NCBI GenBank assembly: GCA_021324255.1
Contig: JAJPJL010000051.1
Coordinates: 1 to 60,613 of the forward strand
Length of the DNA: 60,613 nt
DNA from: Bacillota bacterium
GTDB taxonomy: Bacteria > Sysuimicrobiota > Sysuimicrobiia > Sysuimicrobiales > Segetimicrobiaceae
Reading direction: 5' to 3'
Shown here piece by piece: positions 42,793 to 52,668 of the stretch. Position numbers and translations under genes: made by a program. Under the pieces are notes generated by a model. The model was not told the DNA's origin, did no database searches, and saw only the letters and a program-made list of their open reading frames with translations. Position 1 is the first letter of the stretch. The number at the start of each line of letters is the position of its first letter.

Positions 42793-43362
42793 ATGCGGCG
42801 CGTCGTGGTCGTCGGCACGAGCGGGTCGGGCAAGACAACAGTGGCCCGGGAGCTCTCGCAGCGATTGGGTGTGCCCCACCTCGAGCTCGACGCGCTGCAT
42901 TGGGCCCCCGGGTGGACGGAGACGCCGACCGACGTCCTCCGGATGCGCGTGGCCCGCGCGCTCGACGCGCCGGGCTGGGTGGTCGACGGCAACTACGCGA
43001 AGGTGCGCGATCTCGTCTGGCCGCGCGCCGACACGGTCGTCTGGCTGGACTATCCGCTCGCCGTCGTGCTGCGACAGGTCATCGGACGGACCGTGCGGCG
43101 CATGCTCGCGCGGGAGGAGCTGTGGAGCGGCAACCGCGAGCGGCTCCGGACGGCGTTGAGCCGCAACTCGATCATCCTCTGGGCCCTGCAGACGCACGGC
43201 CCGAACCGCCGTCAGTACACGGCGGCGTTCCGGCGACCGGAGTGGGCGCACCTCCACGTCGTACGGCTGCGGTCGCCGGGCGAGACGCGCCGGTGGCTTT
43301 CGAGGTCGGTCGATCGGCGCGGTGACGCCGGCAACCCGAGCGACCACGAACACCGCGCTTGA
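42793..43362 (+). CDS. Small P-loop kinase-like protein (adenylate kinase / FlaR-type topology modulation family)
   Basis: A 189-residue P-loop NTPase. Walker A is GTSGSGKTT at residues 8-16, preceded by a strand MRRVVVVG. Following it, LGVPHLELDALHWAPGWTET and WVVDGNYAKVRDLVWPRADT are diagnostic of the FlaR/adenylate-kinase-like 'topology modulation' family. A basic lid region with RRMLAREELWSGNRERLR follows. It phosphorylates an unknown small substrate. ATG 42793 is preferred over ATG 42787 because GGAGG ends seven bases before it. Confidence 0.87.
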   Translation: MRRVVVVGTSGSGKTTVARELSQRLGVPHLELDALHWAPGWTETPTDVLRMRVARALDAPGWVVDGNYAKVRDLVWPRADTVVWLDYPLAVVLRQVIGRTVRRMLAREELWSGNRERLRTALSRNSIILWALQTHGPNRRQYTAAFRRPEWAHLHVVRLRSPGETRRWLSRSVDRRGDAGNPSDHEHRA

Positions 43363-43447
43363 TTACGGTGACCATGTCACGATATCGTGTAATCACCGAC
43401 GCGAAGCGGGGTGGGGGAGTGGCGAGGGTCCGGAGCCACGCGCGCTC

Positions 43448-45922
43448 ATGGGGCACGTTCGCGTGTCGGGCCGCGCGCTATCGGAGGCCGTACCGCGAGC
43501 CGGTCTGGACCCGCCGCCCGCGTTCTCAGCGCTCGTGCCCGGCGTAACGGCATGCCCGATCGAGCGCGTGCACGCGTGGAGCGCCACGCCGGAGGGGATG
43601 GTCCTGTCCTGTGTCGCCGGGCGGGTCTGGTGCGCGACAGTACGCCTGACGCCGTGGGCTCCGAACATCATCCGCTATCGTCTGACCGCAGGCCCGCACG
43701 CAGGCGCGCCCGCGCCGGCGTACCCGATTCGGGATCCCGACCCCAACGTCGGCCACGAGATCCGTGAAACCGCGGCGGGGTGGCGGTTAGAAACCGACGC
43801 GCTCGTGCTGGAAATCGGCCGGACCCCGTGGACGCTGGCGTACCGGACGGGCGAAGGCCGGCCGCTGACCCGGCAGGTCGCCGACGACGTGAACCTCGGC
43901 GGGGACGTGCTGGGGCCGGCGCCGGGGTTTGAGCTGGACGGAGCCTCGCAGGATCCTGCGCGTCAGGCGCGGCGCGGCTTCGAGACGCTGCTGTTGGACC
44001 CCCACGACCACTGGTATGGGTTCGGGGAAAAGTTCACGGACCTGGACAAGCGCGGGCAGACGATCGACGTGTGGCAGGAAAACGCGGCCGGCGCGCGCAC
44101 CGGGGCCGCGTACAAAAACATCCCGCTCATGATGACCCCGCGCGGCTACGGGGTCTTCGTCAACTCGACGGCCCGGGTGACCTGCTGGATGGGGTCGCGG
44201 TCGACGCGCACGTGGAGCCTGGCGGTGCCCGGGGACACCGTCGAGTACTTTTTCATCGCCGGGACGCTCGCGGAGATCCTCGAGTCCTACGCCCGACTCA
44301 CCGGGTTTCCGCCGGTCCCGCCGCGGTGGTCGTTTGGACTCTGGGCGTCGACGTCGTTCGTGCCGATCGACCAGGCGCAGGTCGGCGCGCGGGCGCGCCG
44401 GCTCCGGCGTGAGGGGATCCCGGCCGACGTCGTGCACCTCGATGCCACGTGGCAGCGTGCGGAAGAACGTTCGGATCTCCGCTGGGACCCCGAGGCGTTT
44501 CCCGACCCGGCGCGGCTGATCAGTGACCTGCACGGCCTGGGATACAAGGTCTCGCTGTGGGAGAACCCCTACGTCTCCATTCACAGTTCCTTGTTCCAGG
44601 AAGGGGCGGCCCGCGGCTACTTTCTTCGCCGGCCGGATGGCTCCGTGTACACGCCGCAGATCGGTTCAGGCGCGGGAGGCCGCCGGTACCCGCTGTGCGC
44701 GATCGTCGACTTTACCAACCCCGCGGCGGCGGAGTGGTTTCGAGCGCTGCACGCGCCGCTGCTCGAGGCCGGCGTGGACACGTTCAAGACGGACTTCGGC
44801 GAGGAGATCCCGGTCGACGCGGTCTTCCACAACGGACGCACCGGCGCCGAGATGCGCAACATGTACGCGCGCCTGTACCAGGAGCTCGTGTTCACCATGC
44901 TCCGAGAGCGCCACGGGGTCGCCGTCATCTGGGCCCGCGCGGCGTGCCCGGGCGCGCAGCAGTTCCCGGTGCATTGGTCCGGGGATCCGCACTGCACCTA
45001 CGAGGACATGGCGGCGACGCTCCGGGGCGGCCTCAGCGCGGGCATGTCCGGCGTCGCGTTCTGGAGCCACGACATCGGTGGGTTCTATGGGACGCCCACT
45101 CCGGATCTGTACGTGCGGTGGGCGCAGTTCGGCCTGTTGTCGGGACACGCGCGCTACCACGGGACGACCGTGCGCGACCCGTGGGCGTTCGGCGACGACA
45201 TCCTTGCGATCTTTCGCCGGTATGCCGTTCTGCGGTCGCGCCTCGTGCCATACCTCTACACGTACGCCTGCTGCGCCGCGGAGACGGGACTCCCGCTCAT
45301 GCGCCCGCTCGTGCTGCGTTACCAGGACGATCCGGCGACGTACGGGATCGACCTGCAGTATCTGCTCGGCGACGAGCTGCTCATCGCGCCCGTGTTCGAT
45401 CCCGACGGCCGCGTGGCCGCCTACCTGCCGCGCGGGCGATGGACGGATTTCTGGACGGGCGAGGTGATCCAGGGGCCCTGCGCGATCCGGCGGCTCGCTC
45501 CGCGTGACGTCCTGCCGGTCTACGTGAGGGAGAACAGTCTGGTGCCGCTGGGGCCGCCCCTGCAGTACGCCGGTGAGCGCCCCTGCGACCCGCTCACGGT
45601 GGAGGCCTACGTCACGGCCGAAGCGCGGTTCACCCTGCGGGGCGAGGACGAACAGCTGCCGCTGACCGTACGGCGCGAGGGGCCGGCGTTCGACTTCGAG
45701 GCGGGCGCCGCGGCCGCCACGTACACCGTGCGATTCCACGGCGCCGGGGACGCGGCCGCGGCGACGGCGGACGGGAGGCCGCTTGCTCGGGTGGCTGATC
45801 CAGCCGAGCTCGACCGGATCTCCGAGGGGTGGGTTGTCGCGTCCGGGGTCGTCACCGTCAAGGCCCGTGCGAGGCGCATACGCCTGGCGGGTTGCCCCGA
45901 GTTCCCCGCGGCGCCATCGTGA
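43448..45922 (+). CDS. Glycoside hydrolase family 31, alpha-xylosidase-like
   Basis: An 824-residue GH31 enzyme. An N-terminal beta-sandwich is followed by the catalytic barrel and C-terminal sheet domains. The nucleophile is Asp449 in FKTDFGEEIP, and the acid/base is Asp513 in HWSGDPHCTYEDM. FWSHDIGGFYG follows as in YicI-type alpha-xylosidases. These release alpha-xylose from xyloglucan-type oligosaccharides; an alpha-glucosidase specificity is possible. No signal peptide is seen, so action is intracellular on imported sugars. ATG 43448 has only a weak ribosome-binding site, so the start is uncertain. It is convergent with the sugar ABC operon. Confidence 0.9.
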   Translation: MGHVRVSGRALSEAVPRAGLDPPPAFSALVPGVTACPIERVHAWSATPEGMVLSCVAGRVWCATVRLTPWAPNIIRYRLTAGPHAGAPAPAYPIRDPDPNVGHEIRETAAGWRLETDALVLEIGRTPWTLAYRTGEGRPLTRQVADDVNLGGDVLGPAPGFELDGASQDPARQARRGFETLLLDPHDHWYGFGEKFTDLDKRGQTIDVWQENAAGARTGAAYKNIPLMMTPRGYGVFVNSTARVTCWMGSRSTRTWSLAVPGDTVEYFFIAGTLAEILESYARLTGFPPVPPRWSFGLWASTSFVPIDQAQVGARARRLRREGIPADVVHLDATWQRAEERSDLRWDPEAFPDPARLISDLHGLGYKVSLWENPYVSIHSSLFQEGAARGYFLRRPDGSVYTPQIGSGAGGRRYPLCAIVDFTNPAAAEWFRALHAPLLEAGVDTFKTDFGEEIPVDAVFHNGRTGAEMRNMYARLYQELVFTMLRERHGVAVIWARAACPGAQQFPVHWSGDPHCTYEDMAATLRGGLSAGMSGVAFWSHDIGGFYGTPTPDLYVRWAQFGLLSGHARYHGTTVRDPWAFGDDILAIFRRYAVLRSRLVPYLYTYACCAAETGLPLMRPLVLRYQDDPATYGIDLQYLLGDELLIAPVFDPDGRVAAYLPRGRWTDFWTGEVIQGPCAIRRLAPRDVLPVYVRENSLVPLGPPLQYAGERPCDPLTVEAYVTAEARFTLRGEDEQLPLTVRREGPAFDFEAGAAAATYTVRFHGAGDAAAATADGRPLARVADPAELDRISEGWVVASGVVTVKARARRIRLAGCPEFPAAPS

Positions 45923-45955: not shown

Positions 45956-46777
45956 CTATCCCTTGACCGCCCCGAGCGTCAGGCCGCGGACGACGTGCCG
46001 CTGCAGCGCGAGGGTCAGGATCACGGTCGGGATCATGACGAGGACGGCGGCGGCGCTCATCTCGTTGTACAGAGGACCGACGTCGGTGTTGAACCCCGCG
46101 ATGACGACCGGCAGCGTCTTGGAGTGCACGCCCGACAGGATCAGCGCGAACAGGAACTCGTTCCAAGAGAGCAGGAACGCGAAGATGCCGGTCACGACGA
46201 GCCCCGGCGCCGCGAGCGGCAGGACGACGTCCCGAAACGCCCGGTACCGCGAGCACCCGTCCACAAATGCCGCTTCCTCGACGTCCCGGGGCACCTCGTC
46301 GAAGAAGCCGATCATGAGCCAGATCGTGAATGGCAGCGCGAAGGACACGTACGCGAGGATGAGCCCCGTGTAGGTGTCCAGGAGCCCCAGCCGCAGCATC
46401 ATGAGGAAGTACGGCACGACGAGTGCGATGCGCGGCACCATGCGGGTCATCAGGATCAGGAACCGAATCGTCGCGGCGCCCTTGAACGCGAAGCGCGAGA
46501 AGCCGTACGCGGCGAGCGCGCCGAGCCCCATGGCGCCGACGGTCGTGCCGGCAGCGACGGCGAGGCTGTTGGCGAAGTACTGCGCAAACGGCACCTCGAA
46601 GAGCACCTGCCGGTAGCTGTCCCAGACCGGCGGGACGAACCACCGCGGCGGTCTCAGGTATAGCTGCAGCTCCGTCTTCACGGACGCGGACAGCATCCAA
46701 AAGAGCGGGACGAGCGTCCACACCAGGACCGCCGCGGCGAGCAACGCCGTTCCGGCAGCGCGCACGCCCCGCTTCAT
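45956..46777 (-). CDS. Sugar ABC transporter permease (MalG-like)
   Basis: A 273-residue carbohydrate permease. The N-terminal helix AAAVLVWTLVPLFWMLSASV is standard. The EAA loop reads DVEEAAFVDGCSRYRAFRDV, and the C-terminus LQRHVVRGLTLGAVKG is the family end. Its start overlaps the upstream permease stop as ATGA. It is the third gene of a minus-strand operon (binding protein, MalF-like, MalG-like). Confidence 0.94.
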   Translation of the reverse strand: MKRGVRAAGTALLAAAVLVWTLVPLFWMLSASVKTELQLYLRPPRWFVPPVWDSYRQVLFEVPFAQYFANSLAVAAGTTVGAMGLGALAAYGFSRFAFKGAATIRFLILMTRMVPRIALVVPYFLMMLRLGLLDTYTGLILAYVSFALPFTIWLMIGFFDEVPRDVEEAAFVDGCSRYRAFRDVVLPLAAPGLVVTGIFAFLLSWNEFLFALILSGVHSKTLPVVIAGFNTDVGPLYNEMSAAAVLVMIPTVILTLALQRHVVRGLTLGAVKG

Positions 46778-47640
46778 GCGGCGCGCTCCCGCGCCAGCAG
46801 CCGCAGGAGCGCGAGCGACATCGCGGCCACGAGCACCAGCGTGAGGGTCGACAGCGCGCTCGCGAGCCCCACGCGTCCAAAGCCGAAGATTCGGTAGTTG
46901 AGCATCTGGATGGTTTCCGTGGCGGTTCCGGGACCGCCGGACGTCAACACGTAGAAGATGTCGAACTCCCGGAACGCATCCATGGCGCGGATGAGGACGG
47001 CGACGACCATGATGTACCGCAGCAGCGGCAGCGTGATGTGCCAGAACGTCTGCCACGCGCCGGCGCCGTCGACCATGGCCGCCTCGAAAAACTCATGTGG
47101 CTGGCTCACGATGCCCGCGTGGAGGACCAGGAACATAAAGGGGATCGTGCGCCACGCGTCCAGGAGGATGAGTGCGACCATGGCCAGCCCGGGATCGCTG
47201 AGCCACGGCGGTCCCGCGATGCCGATCCGGCGGAGGTAGTAATTGACGATGCCGAGATCCGGATGGAACATCAGCCGCCACATGGTGCCCGACACGACGG
47301 GGGTGATGAACAAGGGGAGCAGGATCACCGGTCGCACGAGATCGAAGACCCGCGCCCGCTGGGCGAACACGACAGCCAGGAAGAGGCCGGCGACGAGCTC
47401 GAGGCTCACGGCCCCCGCCATGAACACCGCGGAGACCGCCGTGTCGTGCGCCACCTGCGGGTCGGTCACCAGGCCCACGTAGTTGCCCAGCCCAATCAGG
47501 TGCGTCTCCGAGGGGCGCACCAGCCACCACGAGTACAGGCTGATCACGACCGCGTAGGCCAGCGGAAACAGATCGATCAGCAGCAGGAACGCAATGCCCG
47601 GAGCGAGCCACGGGAGTCCGCCCCGGGCATACCGCACCAT
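46774..47640 (-). CDS. Sugar ABC transporter permease (MalF-like)
   Basis: A 288-residue permease of the MalF/UgpA type. It starts with PGIAFLLLIDLFPLAYAVVI and has the family segment VIGLGNYVGLVTDPQVA-like region near residue 50. The EAA loop is EFFEAAMVDGAGAWQTFWHI. Seven bases separate it from the binding-protein stop; it overlaps the MalG-like gene by four. It forms the membrane channel with that partner. Confidence 0.94.
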   Translation of the reverse strand: MVRYARGGLPWLAPGIAFLLLIDLFPLAYAVVISLYSWWLVRPSETHLIGLGNYVGLVTDPQVAHDTAVSAVFMAGAVSLELVAGLFLAVVFAQRARVFDLVRPVILLPLFITPVVSGTMWRLMFHPDLGIVNYYLRRIGIAGPPWLSDPGLAMVALILLDAWRTIPFMFLVLHAGIVSQPHEFFEAAMVDGAGAWQTFWHITLPLLRYIMVVAVLIRAMDAFREFDIFYVLTSGGPGTATETIQMLNYRIFGFGRVGLASALSTLTLVLVAAMSLALLRLLARERAA

Positions 47641-47647
47641 CGCGGTC

Positions 47648-48901
47648 TTACTTCGCCATGATCCGCCCGAGGCTCGCGTCGAGCTCCTTCAGCCCGTCGG
47701 GAACCGAGATCGCGCCGGTGGAGATCTTAGCGGCCGCCTGGCGGAGCGCCTCCTGGATGTCGGGCCACTGGGGGACGCGCGTGCGCGACCGCGCGATCTT
47801 CAGGTTGGCCAGGAGCGCCGGGGCGTAGGGCAGGGCCGCGTCGACCTTGGGATCCTGCAGGACTGACACGCGGGGGCTGTGGATGGCGGACGACGTCGCG
47901 GGATAGAGCGCCGCCGTGGTGCCGAACTCCTTGCCGGTGATCCACTGCACGAACTTGGCCGCCGCGTCCTTATGCGAGGTCTTGGCGGCCACCCCGATCG
48001 TCCACACGCCGCGCATCGGATCCCGTCCCGCCGGCCCCTTCGGCATGAGAGCGTAGCCAAGCTTGCCGGCTACGGTGGAGTTTGCCGGGTCCTCCATCGG
48101 CCGGGCGCCCGACGCCCATTGGATCGCCATCACTGCCTTACCGAGTTGCACCGCCTTGTTCACATCGGCGAAGGAGTAGCTCTGGACGCTCGGCGGCGCG
48201 TACTTCAGGAGCTGCACGAACTCGCCGGCGCCGCGGCGGGCTTCCGGCGTTTCTGCGGACGGCCGGTCGTTCTTGTCCAGCACGTCGCCGCCATACGACC
48301 ACATGAGCAGCAGCATGTAAAGGCCGGTCTGCTGGTCGCTGCCCGCGGTGGTGACGATCCCGGCGACGCCCTTCGCAGGGTCGTTGAGCATTTGCGCATC
48401 GCGGAGCACGTCGTCCCAGGTGTCCGGGACCTTGAGGCCGCGCTGCTGAAAGACGTCCTTGCGGTAGATGAAGAGCTGCACGTTCGGGTCAACGGGAAGA
48501 GCGTACAACTTCCCGCGGTACCGTCCGGCCGCGACCGTGGACGGCACGAAGTCTCCGAGATCGATCTGCTTCGTGACGTCGTCGAGCGGGGCGAGGAAGT
48601 CGGCGAGCGCCGGAACCCACGGTTCGTCCATGAACAGCACGTCGTAGCGGTTCGCCGACGTCGACAGGGAGAGCAGTGTCTTCTTGTAGAGGTCGTCGTA
48701 CGGCGAGGCGTCGATCTGCACGTGGACGCCGGTCGACTGTTCGAACTTCGAGATGTTGGCGCGGAGCACGTCTTCCTTGTAGCCGGCGAGGAATGCCAGC
48801 GAGATGGTCTCCCCTGGGGCCGCCGCCACCGGCGCTCCGCCCACGGGGCCGATCAGGATCGCCGCGAGCACCATGCACGCGATCCGAACGCGGATGTTCA
48901 T
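47648..48901 (-). CDS. Sugar ABC transporter substrate-binding protein, copy 1
   Basis: A 417-residue family-1 binding protein with a signal peptide (ACMVLAAILIGPVGGAPVAA). The mature part begins ETISLAFLAGYKEDVLRANI and continues YDVLFMDEPWVPALADFLAP and LFIYRKDVFQQRGLKVPDTW. GGAGGG lies six bases before the ATG. It heads the operon with two permeases. Its strongest relative is the divergent copy at 49470, with 158 bases nearly identical. The ligand is most likely an arabinose- or xylose-containing oligosaccharide, given the enzyme genes on both sides. Confidence 0.93.
   Translation of the reverse strand: MNIRVRIACMVLAAILIGPVGGAPVAAAPGETISLAFLAGYKEDVLRANISKFEQSTGVHVQIDASPYDDLYKKTLLSLSTSANRYDVLFMDEPWVPALADFLAPLDDVTKQIDLGDFVPSTVAAGRYRGKLYALPVDPNVQLFIYRKDVFQQRGLKVPDTWDDVLRDAQMLNDPAKGVAGIVTTAGSDQQTGLYMLLLMWSYGGDVLDKNDRPSAETPEARRGAGEFVQLLKYAPPSVQSYSFADVNKAVQLGKAVMAIQWASGARPMEDPANSTVAGKLGYALMPKGPAGRDPMRGVWTIGVAAKTSHKDAAAKFVQWITGKEFGTTAALYPATSSAIHSPRVSVLQDPKVDAALPYAPALLANLKIARSRTRVPQWPDIQEALRQAAAKISTGAISVPDGLKELDASLGRIMAK
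48624..48781 (-). repeat. Inverted 158-bp repeat, left copy (inside binding protein copy 1)
   Basis: Read on the minus strand, this tract equals 49590-49747 on the plus strand with a single mismatch (CAC against CGC). Synonymous sites are as conserved as the rest, unlike the flanking parts of the two genes, which differ at many third positions. Confidence 0.95.
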
Positions 48902-49469
48902 CGCTGTCCCTCCTCGATATGGCGGTCATCGTTTGCGCGCTCGCGCGCTGGCGGGGAGTGGGACGGTCCGGCGGGCCTCTCATCGGATGACTCGCCGAAC
49001 CGGCATCCTGCGATTCCCATGCGCCGCGCGCGCCTTCGTCACGAGGACGGAGGTCCCGCCGTCCGCCCGTCCGGACCGCCCGCCAGTTCGGCCTCGTCGG
49101 GCCCGCGCCCCAGCGCCGCCCATCGGCGATGGCACGCGGCCCGGGATACGCGGTCACCCGGACCGCTCCCGGCAGCCGCCGGCGCAGCGGAGCGACCTGA
49201 GCCGGGACCGCGAGCCACGCACGAGAACGTCGCCTCGCGATCGCCGACCGTCTTCGCCAGTCTCCGCTCGATCGCCCACGTCTGGCGCACCGCACCGTCC
49301 CGTTGTCGGACGTATCGCACGCCGCACGGCACTTCGGAGAAAAAGCGGAGGGATAGTGTTCCCTGATGCCGTAGACGTTTCCTGTCTGCGTCGGCGACAC
49401 CCGCTGGTCGGGACGCGGGCGGCATCCCACGGTTCGATGTCGGCGTCCGCCACAGAAGGGGGTTCGTGC
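48902..49469. other. Divergent promoter region between the two sugar-binding protein genes
   Basis: 568 bp. No gene is supported on either strand. It must carry the promoters of both transporter genes. I see no near-consensus promoter, and no regulator gene is adjacent. AGAAGGGGG (49455-49463) is the ribosome-binding site of copy 2. Confidence 0.5.
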
Positions 49470-50720
49470 ATGCGCAGTCTGATGCGGCTGATCTGCGTCG
49501 GCCTGGTGGTCGCCGTGGCGGGTGCGGCGGCGGCCGCGCCGTTGTGGGCCGCCGCGGAGGAGACGATCTCGCTCGCATTTTCCGCCGGGTACAAGGAAGA
49601 CGTGCTCCGCGCCAACATCTCGAAGTTCGAACAGTCGACCGGCGTCCGCGTGCAGATCGACGCCTCGCCGTACGACGACCTCTACAAGAAGACACTGCTC
49701 TCCCTGTCGACGTCGGCGAACCGCTACGACGTGCTGTTCATGGACGAGTTGTGGGTGCCTGGCCTGGCGCGCTTTCTCATGCCGCTCGACGCGCTGGCGA
49801 AGCAGCTCGATGTCGCCGATTTTGCGCCCGCGGCCATGCAGGCTGGCGTCGTGCAAGGCCGGCTGTACGGCATCCCGGCAGACCCGAACGTGCAGCTGTT
49901 CATCTACCGCAAGGACGTCTTTCAGCAGCGCGGCCTCAAGGTCCCCGACACGTGGGACGAGGTGCTTCGCGACGCGCAAATGCTGAATGACCCGGCGAAG
50001 GGTGTCGCCGGGATTGTCACCACCGCAGGCGGCGACCTGCAAACCGCCCTCGACATGCTCCTCTTCATGTGGTCGTACGGCGGGGACGTGCTCGACCGCG
50101 ACGGCCGGGCGAGCGCCGACACCCCGGCGGTCCGACGAGGCGTGGACATGTTCCTGCAGTTGCTGAAGTATGCGCCGCCGGGAGTGCAGAGCTACTCGTA
50201 TCCGGACATCACCAAGACGATGCAGCTCGGCAGGGCGATGACGGCGATCCAGTGGGCCGGGGGCGCCCGGCCGATGGAGGACCCGGCGAACTCGACCGTG
50301 GCCGGCAAACTCGGATACGCGCTGATGCCGCGAGGCACGCAGCGGGCGCCCATGCGCGGTGTCTGGGTGATCGGCATCGCCGGCTCCACGCAGCACCGGG
50401 AGGCCGCATGGAAGTTTGCCCAGTGGGTGACTGGACGCGAGTTCGGGCTGGCCTCTGTGCTCTATCCGGCGAAGGCCGCCGCCATGCATAGCGCGCGCGT
50501 CTCCGTGCTCACCGATCCAAAGGTGGTCGCGACGCTACCCTACGCTCCGGCGCTCCTCGCCAACCTGCGCATCTCGCGCGCGCGGGCCCGCGTGCCGCAG
50601 TTTCCGGATATCCAAGAGGCAGTGCGCGAGGCCGCCGCCGGCATCACGACCGGCCGGACGCCCGTTCCCGACGGGCTCAAGGCGCTGGACGCGAGCATCA
50701 ACCGCGTCATGGCCAAGTAG
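49470..50720 (+). CDS. Sugar ABC transporter substrate-binding protein, copy 2
   Basis: A 416-residue binding protein, paralogue of copy 1 in the opposite orientation. The signal peptide is MRLICVGLVVAVAGAAAAA with the mature start around ETISLAFSAGYKEDVLRANI. It keeps all the same landmarks, such as LFIYRKDVFQQRGLKVPDTW and MEDPANSTVAGKLGYALMP. No permease follows; the GH127 gene starts one base after its stop. It probably delivers a second ligand to the permeases encoded on the minus strand. ATG 49470 follows AGAAGGGGG. Confidence 0.93.
   Translation: MRSLMRLICVGLVVAVAGAAAAAPLWAAAEETISLAFSAGYKEDVLRANISKFEQSTGVRVQIDASPYDDLYKKTLLSLSTSANRYDVLFMDELWVPGLARFLMPLDALAKQLDVADFAPAAMQAGVVQGRLYGIPADPNVQLFIYRKDVFQQRGLKVPDTWDEVLRDAQMLNDPAKGVAGIVTTAGGDLQTALDMLLFMWSYGGDVLDRDGRASADTPAVRRGVDMFLQLLKYAPPGVQSYSYPDITKTMQLGRAMTAIQWAGGARPMEDPANSTVAGKLGYALMPRGTQRAPMRGVWVIGIAGSTQHREAAWKFAQWVTGREFGLASVLYPAKAAAMHSARVSVLTDPKVVATLPYAPALLANLRISRARARVPQFPDIQEAVREAAAGITTGRTPVPDGLKALDASINRVMAK
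49590..49747 (+). repeat. Inverted 158-bp repeat, right copy (inside binding protein copy 2)
   Basis: Partner of 48624-48781. The arms are separated by 808 bases that include both start codons and the whole divergent promoter region, so recombination between them would invert that region. Confidence 0.95.
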
Positions 50721-50721
50721 G

Positions 50722-52668
50722 GTGGGGGTGTCGGTGCCGCCCGCAGCGGGCGCCGGGCCGGTCGACGTACGGCGCAGCCCCGCGGCGGTACTGCGGACGC
50801 TGGACGCGCGTGGCGTGGCGCTTGCGGGCGGCCTCTGGGGCGCGCGCCAATCGGTCAATCGCGACCGTGCACTGCCGCACGGGCTCAGGATGCTGGAGGC
50901 CGCGGGGAACCTCGACAATCTGCGGAGCGCGGCGGGACGGTCAGCGCGGCAGTACCGCGGGCCCGTGTTCATGGACTCGGACGTGTACAAGTGGCTCGAG
51001 GCCGCCTCGTACGAGGTCGCCCGCGCGCCGTCCGACAGCCTCACCGCGGCGATGCAACCGCTGATCGAGTTGGTGGCCGCGGCCCAACAGGAGGACGGTT
51101 ACGTCAATTCCTATTTCCAGGTCGCGGAACGGGGGCGGCGCTGGACCGATTTTGCGTACGGTCACGAGCTGTACTGCGCCGGGCATCTCTTCCAGGCCGC
51201 CGTGGCCCACCACCGCGCGACCGGGACCACACCTCTGCTCGGTATCGCCCGCCGGTTTGCGGACTACCTGTGCGCGACCTTCGGCGCGAACCGGCGGATC
51301 GGCGTGCCCGGCCACCCGGAAGTTGAGACCGCACTGGTGGAACTCTTCCGGGAAACCGGGGCCCGCGCCTACCTCGACCTCGCCGCGTTTTTCGTCGATC
51401 AGCGGGGGAGGGGATGGCTCGGTCCCGGGCGCTACAACAGTCCGGCGCATTATCAAGACCGTGTGCCGGTTCGCGAGTCCGCCGAGCTCGAGGGCCACGC
51501 CGTGCGGGCGCAGTACCTCACCGCCGGCGTCGCCGACCTGTACCTCGAAACGGCAGAGGCGGCGCTCCTCGACGCGGTCACCCGGCAGTGGAACGACCTC
51601 GTCACGCACAAGCTCTACATCACCGGGGCGGTCGGGTCGCGCCACCTGGCCGAGGCGGTCGGGCAGCCCTACGAACTGCCGAATGAGCTCGCGTACGGCG
51701 AGACCTGCGCGGCGATCGCGAGCTTCATGTGGAGCTGGCGTATGCTGTTGGCGACCGGCCAGAGCCGTTTCGCCGATCTCATGGAACGGACACTGTACAA
51801 CGGTATCCTGAGCGGGGTATCGCTTGACGGAGACCGGTATTTCTATGTGAATCCGCTCGCCAGCAACGGCCGCGACGAGCGCCTGAGCCGGGGTGGGTGC
51901 CGGCGGCAGGAGTGGCACCGGGTGGCGTGCTGCCCGCCGAACGTCATGCGGCTGCTGGCGTCGCTCGGCCACTACGTCGCGACCCGGGATGAGGGAGGAC
52001 TCCAGCTCCACCAGTACGCGGGGGCGCGCATCGCGGCCGATCCCCTCCCAGGGCGGTCCGTTGCGTTGCGCGTGGACACCGCGTACCCCTGGGACGGGCA
52101 GGTCACGGTGACGATCGAAGACAGTGCAGGGGCCCCGTGGCGGCTGCGCCTCCGCGTGCCCGGGTGGGCCGACGCCTGGGCCGTTCGAGTCAACGGCACG
52201 GCCGCCGACGTCATGCCGGACGGGGCCGGCTACGTCGGGCTCGATCGCCGCTGGCGGTCCGGGGATGTTGTCGACGTTGAGTGGCGGCTCACGCCCAGAT
52301 TTGTGGAGGCCCACCCTCACATCGAATCCGCATGGGGGTGCGTGGCGATTGAGCGCGGTCCGGTCGTCTACTGCCTCGAGCACGCCGACCATCCGCAGGT
52401 GTCGGTGTTCGACGTGGAGGCCGACACGAGCGCGCCGCTCAGGGCCGCGCACGTGCCGGATCTGCTCGGAGGCGTGACCGTGATTCGCGGGTCGGGGGCG
52501 GCCGTTGATACGTCGCCGTGGAACGGGCGTCTCTACGGGCCGCTCGGGACCAGCGCCGCGGCGGCGCGCCGGCCGATCGAGTTCGTGGCGATTCCGTACT
52601 ACGCCTGGGCCAACCGGGGCCCAGGCGCGATGCGCGTGTGGATTCCGAGGGCCGGGCGCGGTCTCTAG
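50722..52668 (+). CDS. Glycoside hydrolase family 127, beta-L-arabinofuranosidase-like
   Basis: A 648-residue DUF1680/GH127 protein. The zinc-cysteine site of characterised members is intact: Glu327 and Cys329 in YGETCAAIA, and Cys403-Cys404 in ACCPPNVMR, where one Cys is the nucleophile. Other landmarks are FMDSDVYKWLEAASYE, QQEDGYVNSYFQ and GHELYCAGHLFQAAVAHH. It releases L-arabinofuranose from beta-arabino-oligosaccharides. The GTG start lies one base after the binding-protein stop, so the two are translated together. There is no signal peptide, consistent with intracellular processing after uptake. Confidence 0.93.
   Translation: MGVSVPPAAGAGPVDVRRSPAAVLRTLDARGVALAGGLWGARQSVNRDRALPHGLRMLEAAGNLDNLRSAAGRSARQYRGPVFMDSDVYKWLEAASYEVARAPSDSLTAAMQPLIELVAAAQQEDGYVNSYFQVAERGRRWTDFAYGHELYCAGHLFQAAVAHHRATGTTPLLGIARRFADYLCATFGANRRIGVPGHPEVETALVELFRETGARAYLDLAAFFVDQRGRGWLGPGRYNSPAHYQDRVPVRESAELEGHAVRAQYLTAGVADLYLETAEAALLDAVTRQWNDLVTHKLYITGAVGSRHLAEAVGQPYELPNELAYGETCAAIASFMWSWRMLLATGQSRFADLMERTLYNGILSGVSLDGDRYFYVNPLASNGRDERLSRGGCRRQEWHRVACCPPNVMRLLASLGHYVATRDEGGLQLHQYAGARIAADPLPGRSVALRVDTAYPWDGQVTVTIEDSAGAPWRLRLRVPGWADAWAVRVNGTAADVMPDGAGYVGLDRRWRSGDVVDVEWRLTPRFVEAHPHIESAWGCVAIERGPVVYCLEHADHPQVSVFDVEADTSAPLRAAHVPDLLGGVTVIRGSGAAVDTSPWNGRLYGPLGTSAAAARRPIEFVAIPYYAWANRGPGAMRVWIPRAGRGL

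Follow-up and report, generated by a model that had tools for sequence, protein, structure and literature searches.

A near-identical inverted tract in two paralogous sugar-binding protein genes points to recent gene conversion

How do two divergently transcribed paralogues that are ~70% identical along most of their length come to share an almost perfect inverted repeat? The question is raised by two neighboring genes in the window analyzed here, a 60,613-nt stretch of contig JAJPJL010000051.1. Gene A (47648–48901, minus strand) encodes a protein of 417 aa and gene B (49470–50720, plus strand) a protein of 416 aa. The initial annotation placed the repeat at 48624–48781 in A (minus strand) and 49590–49747 in B (plus strand) with a single mismatch, and these arms proved exact: each matched the reverse complement of the other at 157 of 158 positions, covered codons 41–93 of its gene, and was separated from its partner by 808 bp. 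The 808-bp spacer (48782–49589) contains the divergent intergenic region, both gene starts, and the signal peptides, which were called by eye only.

Both genes encode solute-binding proteins, A being annotated as SBP_bac_1 of the extracellular sugar type. The domain PF01547 scored above the cut-off in both products (E = 7e-45 for A, 3e-38 for B) and two sugar permease genes with PF00528 lay alongside, 3' of A on the minus strand (46774–47640 and 45956–46792), as is characteristic of family 1 extracellular solute-binding proteins. Their structurally solved relatives were sugar-binding proteins (best match 5iai, E = 2e-43). The two proteins, 72% identical in amino acid sequence, are CUT1-type sugar-binding paralogues that diverged long ago. 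A GH31 enzyme gene (protein at 43322–45922) was also found near A together with the permeases, and a GH127 beta-L-arabinofuranosidase-like gene (50722–52668, plus strand, PF07944) directly followed B. Given these enzymes, the ligand of the system may reasonably be guessed to be an oligosaccharide of the plant type.

The tract consisted of two identical runs of 58 and 99 bases on either side of the single mismatch, which falls in codon 60 and makes it CAC (His) in A and CGC (Arg) in B. With this tract and a 65-bp candidate second tract set aside, A and B differed at 306 of 1028 aligned bases. When the codons of the pair were shuffled (n = 5000), the most similar 158-bp window still had 15 differences (mean 26.5), compared with the one observed. 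A GENECONV-like run test gave p ~0.001 both for all sites (18/20000) and for synonymous codons (13/20000), and permutation of the run score gave p < 0.0002. Many synonymous differences had been claimed beyond the tract, and outside it the mature genes indeed showed a dS of 0.99 between A and B. The gradual rise in divergence that had been described was not found: the edges were abrupt at both ends, with 0/39 differences (offsets 234–272) followed by 15/39. No third copy of the tract was detected in the 3.7-Mb draft genome, only those of A and B, so no third donor was seen.

To provide an ortholog control, we used the corresponding locus (L041) of a congeneric sister genome (G001). The locus was present in these two genomes only; a scan of genome contigs returned the same sister genome, and no close relative was found in the other 41 genomes searched from the order. 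The sister ortholog of A was 94% identical at the amino acid level. For B, the sister carried an in-frame 95-codon remnant (L041 10546–10833) in which the start to codon 60 was fused to the last ~35 codons, with about 963 bp (in-frame, about 321 codons) missing. This short open frame joins a signal peptide to a C-terminal end. The remnant is probably a pseudogene, an assembly gap being less likely, and apart from A no second B-like gene in the sister genome passed the search.

With this control, the tract could be compared with its surroundings. Within the tract, dS was 0.0 between A and B, 0.31 between A and sister A, and 0.31 between B and sister A; over the remainder of the mature genes, the corresponding values were 0.99, 0.35, and 0.90. 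Differences between A and B numbered 1/158 in the tract, while A and sister A differed at 13/158. The latter proportion was similar to that elsewhere in the gene (99/1031; Fisher p = 0.66), so the tract evolves at an ordinary rate. Purifying selection alone could in principle have held the segment alike in A and B, and the encoded segment does show conservation (four residues in codons 41–60 and none in codons 61–100 distinguish sister A from A). However, a dS of zero between the paralogues alongside a normal ortholog dS argues for conversion rather than selective constraint. We give purifying selection alone practically no credence, and as a cause it was refuted by the synonymous-site comparison. 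The dS pattern also implies that the tract copies of A and B share an ancestor younger than the species split.

Site patterns pointed in the same direction. Among three-way sites, 13 in the tract grouped A with B and one grouped A with sister A, whereas elsewhere 45 grouped A with B and 248 grouped A with sister A (Fisher p = 1e-9 versus the tract). None of the 46 ortholog-grouping four-way sites fell in the tract, compared with five of the eight paralogue-grouping sites. Thus paralogue identity exceeded ortholog identity in the tract, synonymous sites included, and sharp boundaries separated it from flanks with ortholog grouping. The recent gene conversion proposed in the initial annotation was therefore borne out once orthologs served as the yardstick. 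Judged from these sequences, the conversion is recent relative to the species split (1 versus 13 differences, an imprecise ratio).

Because the source assembly is a metagenome-type draft of 142 contigs, an assembly artefact in which one copy merely echoes the other has to be considered. Yet the two copies keep a real difference at codon 60, and the exact runs reach only 58 and 99 bp. The flanks and the open frame around each copy are distinct and diverged, and the gene layout is shared with the sister genome. We regard misassembly as very improbable. The tract identity is very probably the result of ordinary, though neat, gene conversion between paralogues after the species split, in a zone that was probably homogenized before, and no role as a switch is needed to account for it.

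The conversion probably proceeded as follows. Once the two species had separated, the inverted A and B genes would have undergone homologous recombination, most likely through RecA-dependent break repair, and about 160 bp (codons 41–93) would have been copied from one gene to the other without crossover. This would have left a sharp-edged tract almost free of mutations, and the inverted repeat would be a by-product of the conversion. The mismatch at codon 60 probably arose later through a change in B, because CAC is found in A and in both sister genes, although the copy of this codon in sister B sits at the deletion junction.

The simplest, if unproven, direction would be from A as donor to B as recipient, which is favored because A keeps normal ortholog divergence in the tract. 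Sites in the first 58 bp that could be polarized with the sister B remnant were divided, with two for A to B and two for B to A. The direction thus depends mainly on the ortholog divergence of A, since there is one sister genome and its B retains only 60 + ~35 codons.

The same zone was probably homogenized at least once earlier. In the comparable part of the tract, sister A and sister B differed at 4/58 positions, versus 74/228 outside (p = 3e-5). Five sites in this 58-bp part had A and B identical within each genome and different bases between genomes, and no site there grouped the orthologs. These patterns suggest that an earlier round of homogenization preceded the recent one.

A second, shorter tract was a candidate at 48426–48490 in A (minus strand) and 49881–49945 in B (plus strand), where A and B differed at 1/65 positions and A and sister A at 5/65. 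Permutation gave p of about 0.009 for all sites and 0.11 for synonymous sites only, and this segment is suggestive only of a weaker second conversion. The divergence between A and B was also below average at 48286–48472 and 49899–50085 (about codons 144–205), possibly reflecting older conversion.

Inverted arms around two gene starts also invite a different reading, and the initial annotation had raised a possible switch between two ligand-binding proteins. Recombination between the arms would then invert the 808-bp spacer in some cells of the population, swapping the promoters and signal peptides of A and B. The arms are inverted, their longest exact run is 99 bp, and the spacer is short; moreover, recombination between inverted gene copies in Salmonella can produce an inversion, seen in 8% of selected recombinants for inverted cassettes and in up to a quarter of tuf events (PMC8262849). 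The comparison with the sister genome spoke against such flipping. The spacer had the same orientation in both genomes, aligning to that of the sister in the forward direction with a score of 836 versus 461 when reversed. Gene starts were also paired with the same gene bodies: four-way sites 5' of the tract comprised 23 with ortholog pairing, two with paralogue grouping, and one with flipped pairing, and those 3' of the tract comprised 23, one, and zero, respectively. Both orientations were not seen, the only two genomes with the locus sharing a single one. An inversion fixed since the species split was likewise rejected by the start and body pairing and by the forward alignment of the spacer.

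Other features expected of a switch were not seen either. No invertase or recombinase gene was found among those window genes that were scanned around the locus, and the only serine recombinase (PF00239) found in the genome was on another contig (C52). The arms are ordinary coding sequence rather than a recombinase site. With a flip, A and B would trade promoters and their initial 40 codons, which essentially amount to the signal peptides, yet both would remain divergently transcribed, so there would be no choice between two ligand-binding bodies. B has been largely deleted in the sister, so the A–B pair is not conserved. The proposed switch thus found no support, and we consider it very improbable; inversion is possible in principle as a rare by-product of general recombination, as with tufA/tufB.

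The spacer does not have the look of a neat regulatory region. A promoter scan of the intergenic region (48902–49469) gave no sigma-70-like site, and this region contained an apparent decayed start of a minus-strand GH31 gene, nearly erased in the window. In the spacer of the sister genome (L041 10137–10379), a minus-strand GH31 remnant of 61 aa was 46% identical to the protein at 43322–45922 (E = 2e-14). Together with the largely deleted B of the sister, this remnant suggests a duplicated locus in decay more than a switch under maintenance.

Selection may instead have favored the converted tract. If A and B must dock on one permease pair, selection could keep this N-lobe segment alike while the ligand-binding parts diverge, with conversion as the means. 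The permease pair lies 3' of A and GH127 directly after B, and homogenization apparently occurred more than once. By alignment to MalE, the tract corresponds to about residues 15–63 in the N-lobe, which would fit docking; the segment also aligns with part of the ligand-binding side of MalE, which counts against it. Against shared docking also stand the loss of B in the sister and the tendency of conserved stretches, with their higher homology, to undergo conversion more often in any case. We consider shared docking unlikely.

Gene conversion between A and B resembles that between tufA and tufB in Salmonella, where homologous recombination likewise homogenizes inverted chromosomal paralogues and occasionally yields an inversion as well (PMC5485169; PMC8262849 and references therein). 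The two tuf genes, however, are almost identical and lie at a great distance from each other, whereas A and B are ~70% identical, less than 1 kb apart, and homogenized only over a short tract. The rRNA operons of E. coli (PMC8022953) likewise show non-reciprocal copying between repeats of one genome, but these are RNA genes of near-full identity, whereas A and B are diverged protein genes. Invertible promoters and other DNA inversions described in gut bacteria (PMC8748976, PMC10939037) share with our locus a promoter-bearing segment between inverted repeats; such flips are reported to use dedicated recombinases and defined repeat sites. In A and B, by contrast, each arm is a 158-bp piece of coding sequence, and flipping was not seen. 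A literature search turned up no relevant report of gene conversion in solute-binding proteins.

Together, the shared tract is real and well explained by conversion between A and B, a known kind of event. It provides a clean natural case, measured against an ortholog, of a short conversion tract in an uncultivated lineage, the paralogues involved being diverged, inverted, and closely spaced. Trees of such genes should be read with caution, as they mix two histories. Shared docking, if true, would show how a single transporter serves several binding proteins.
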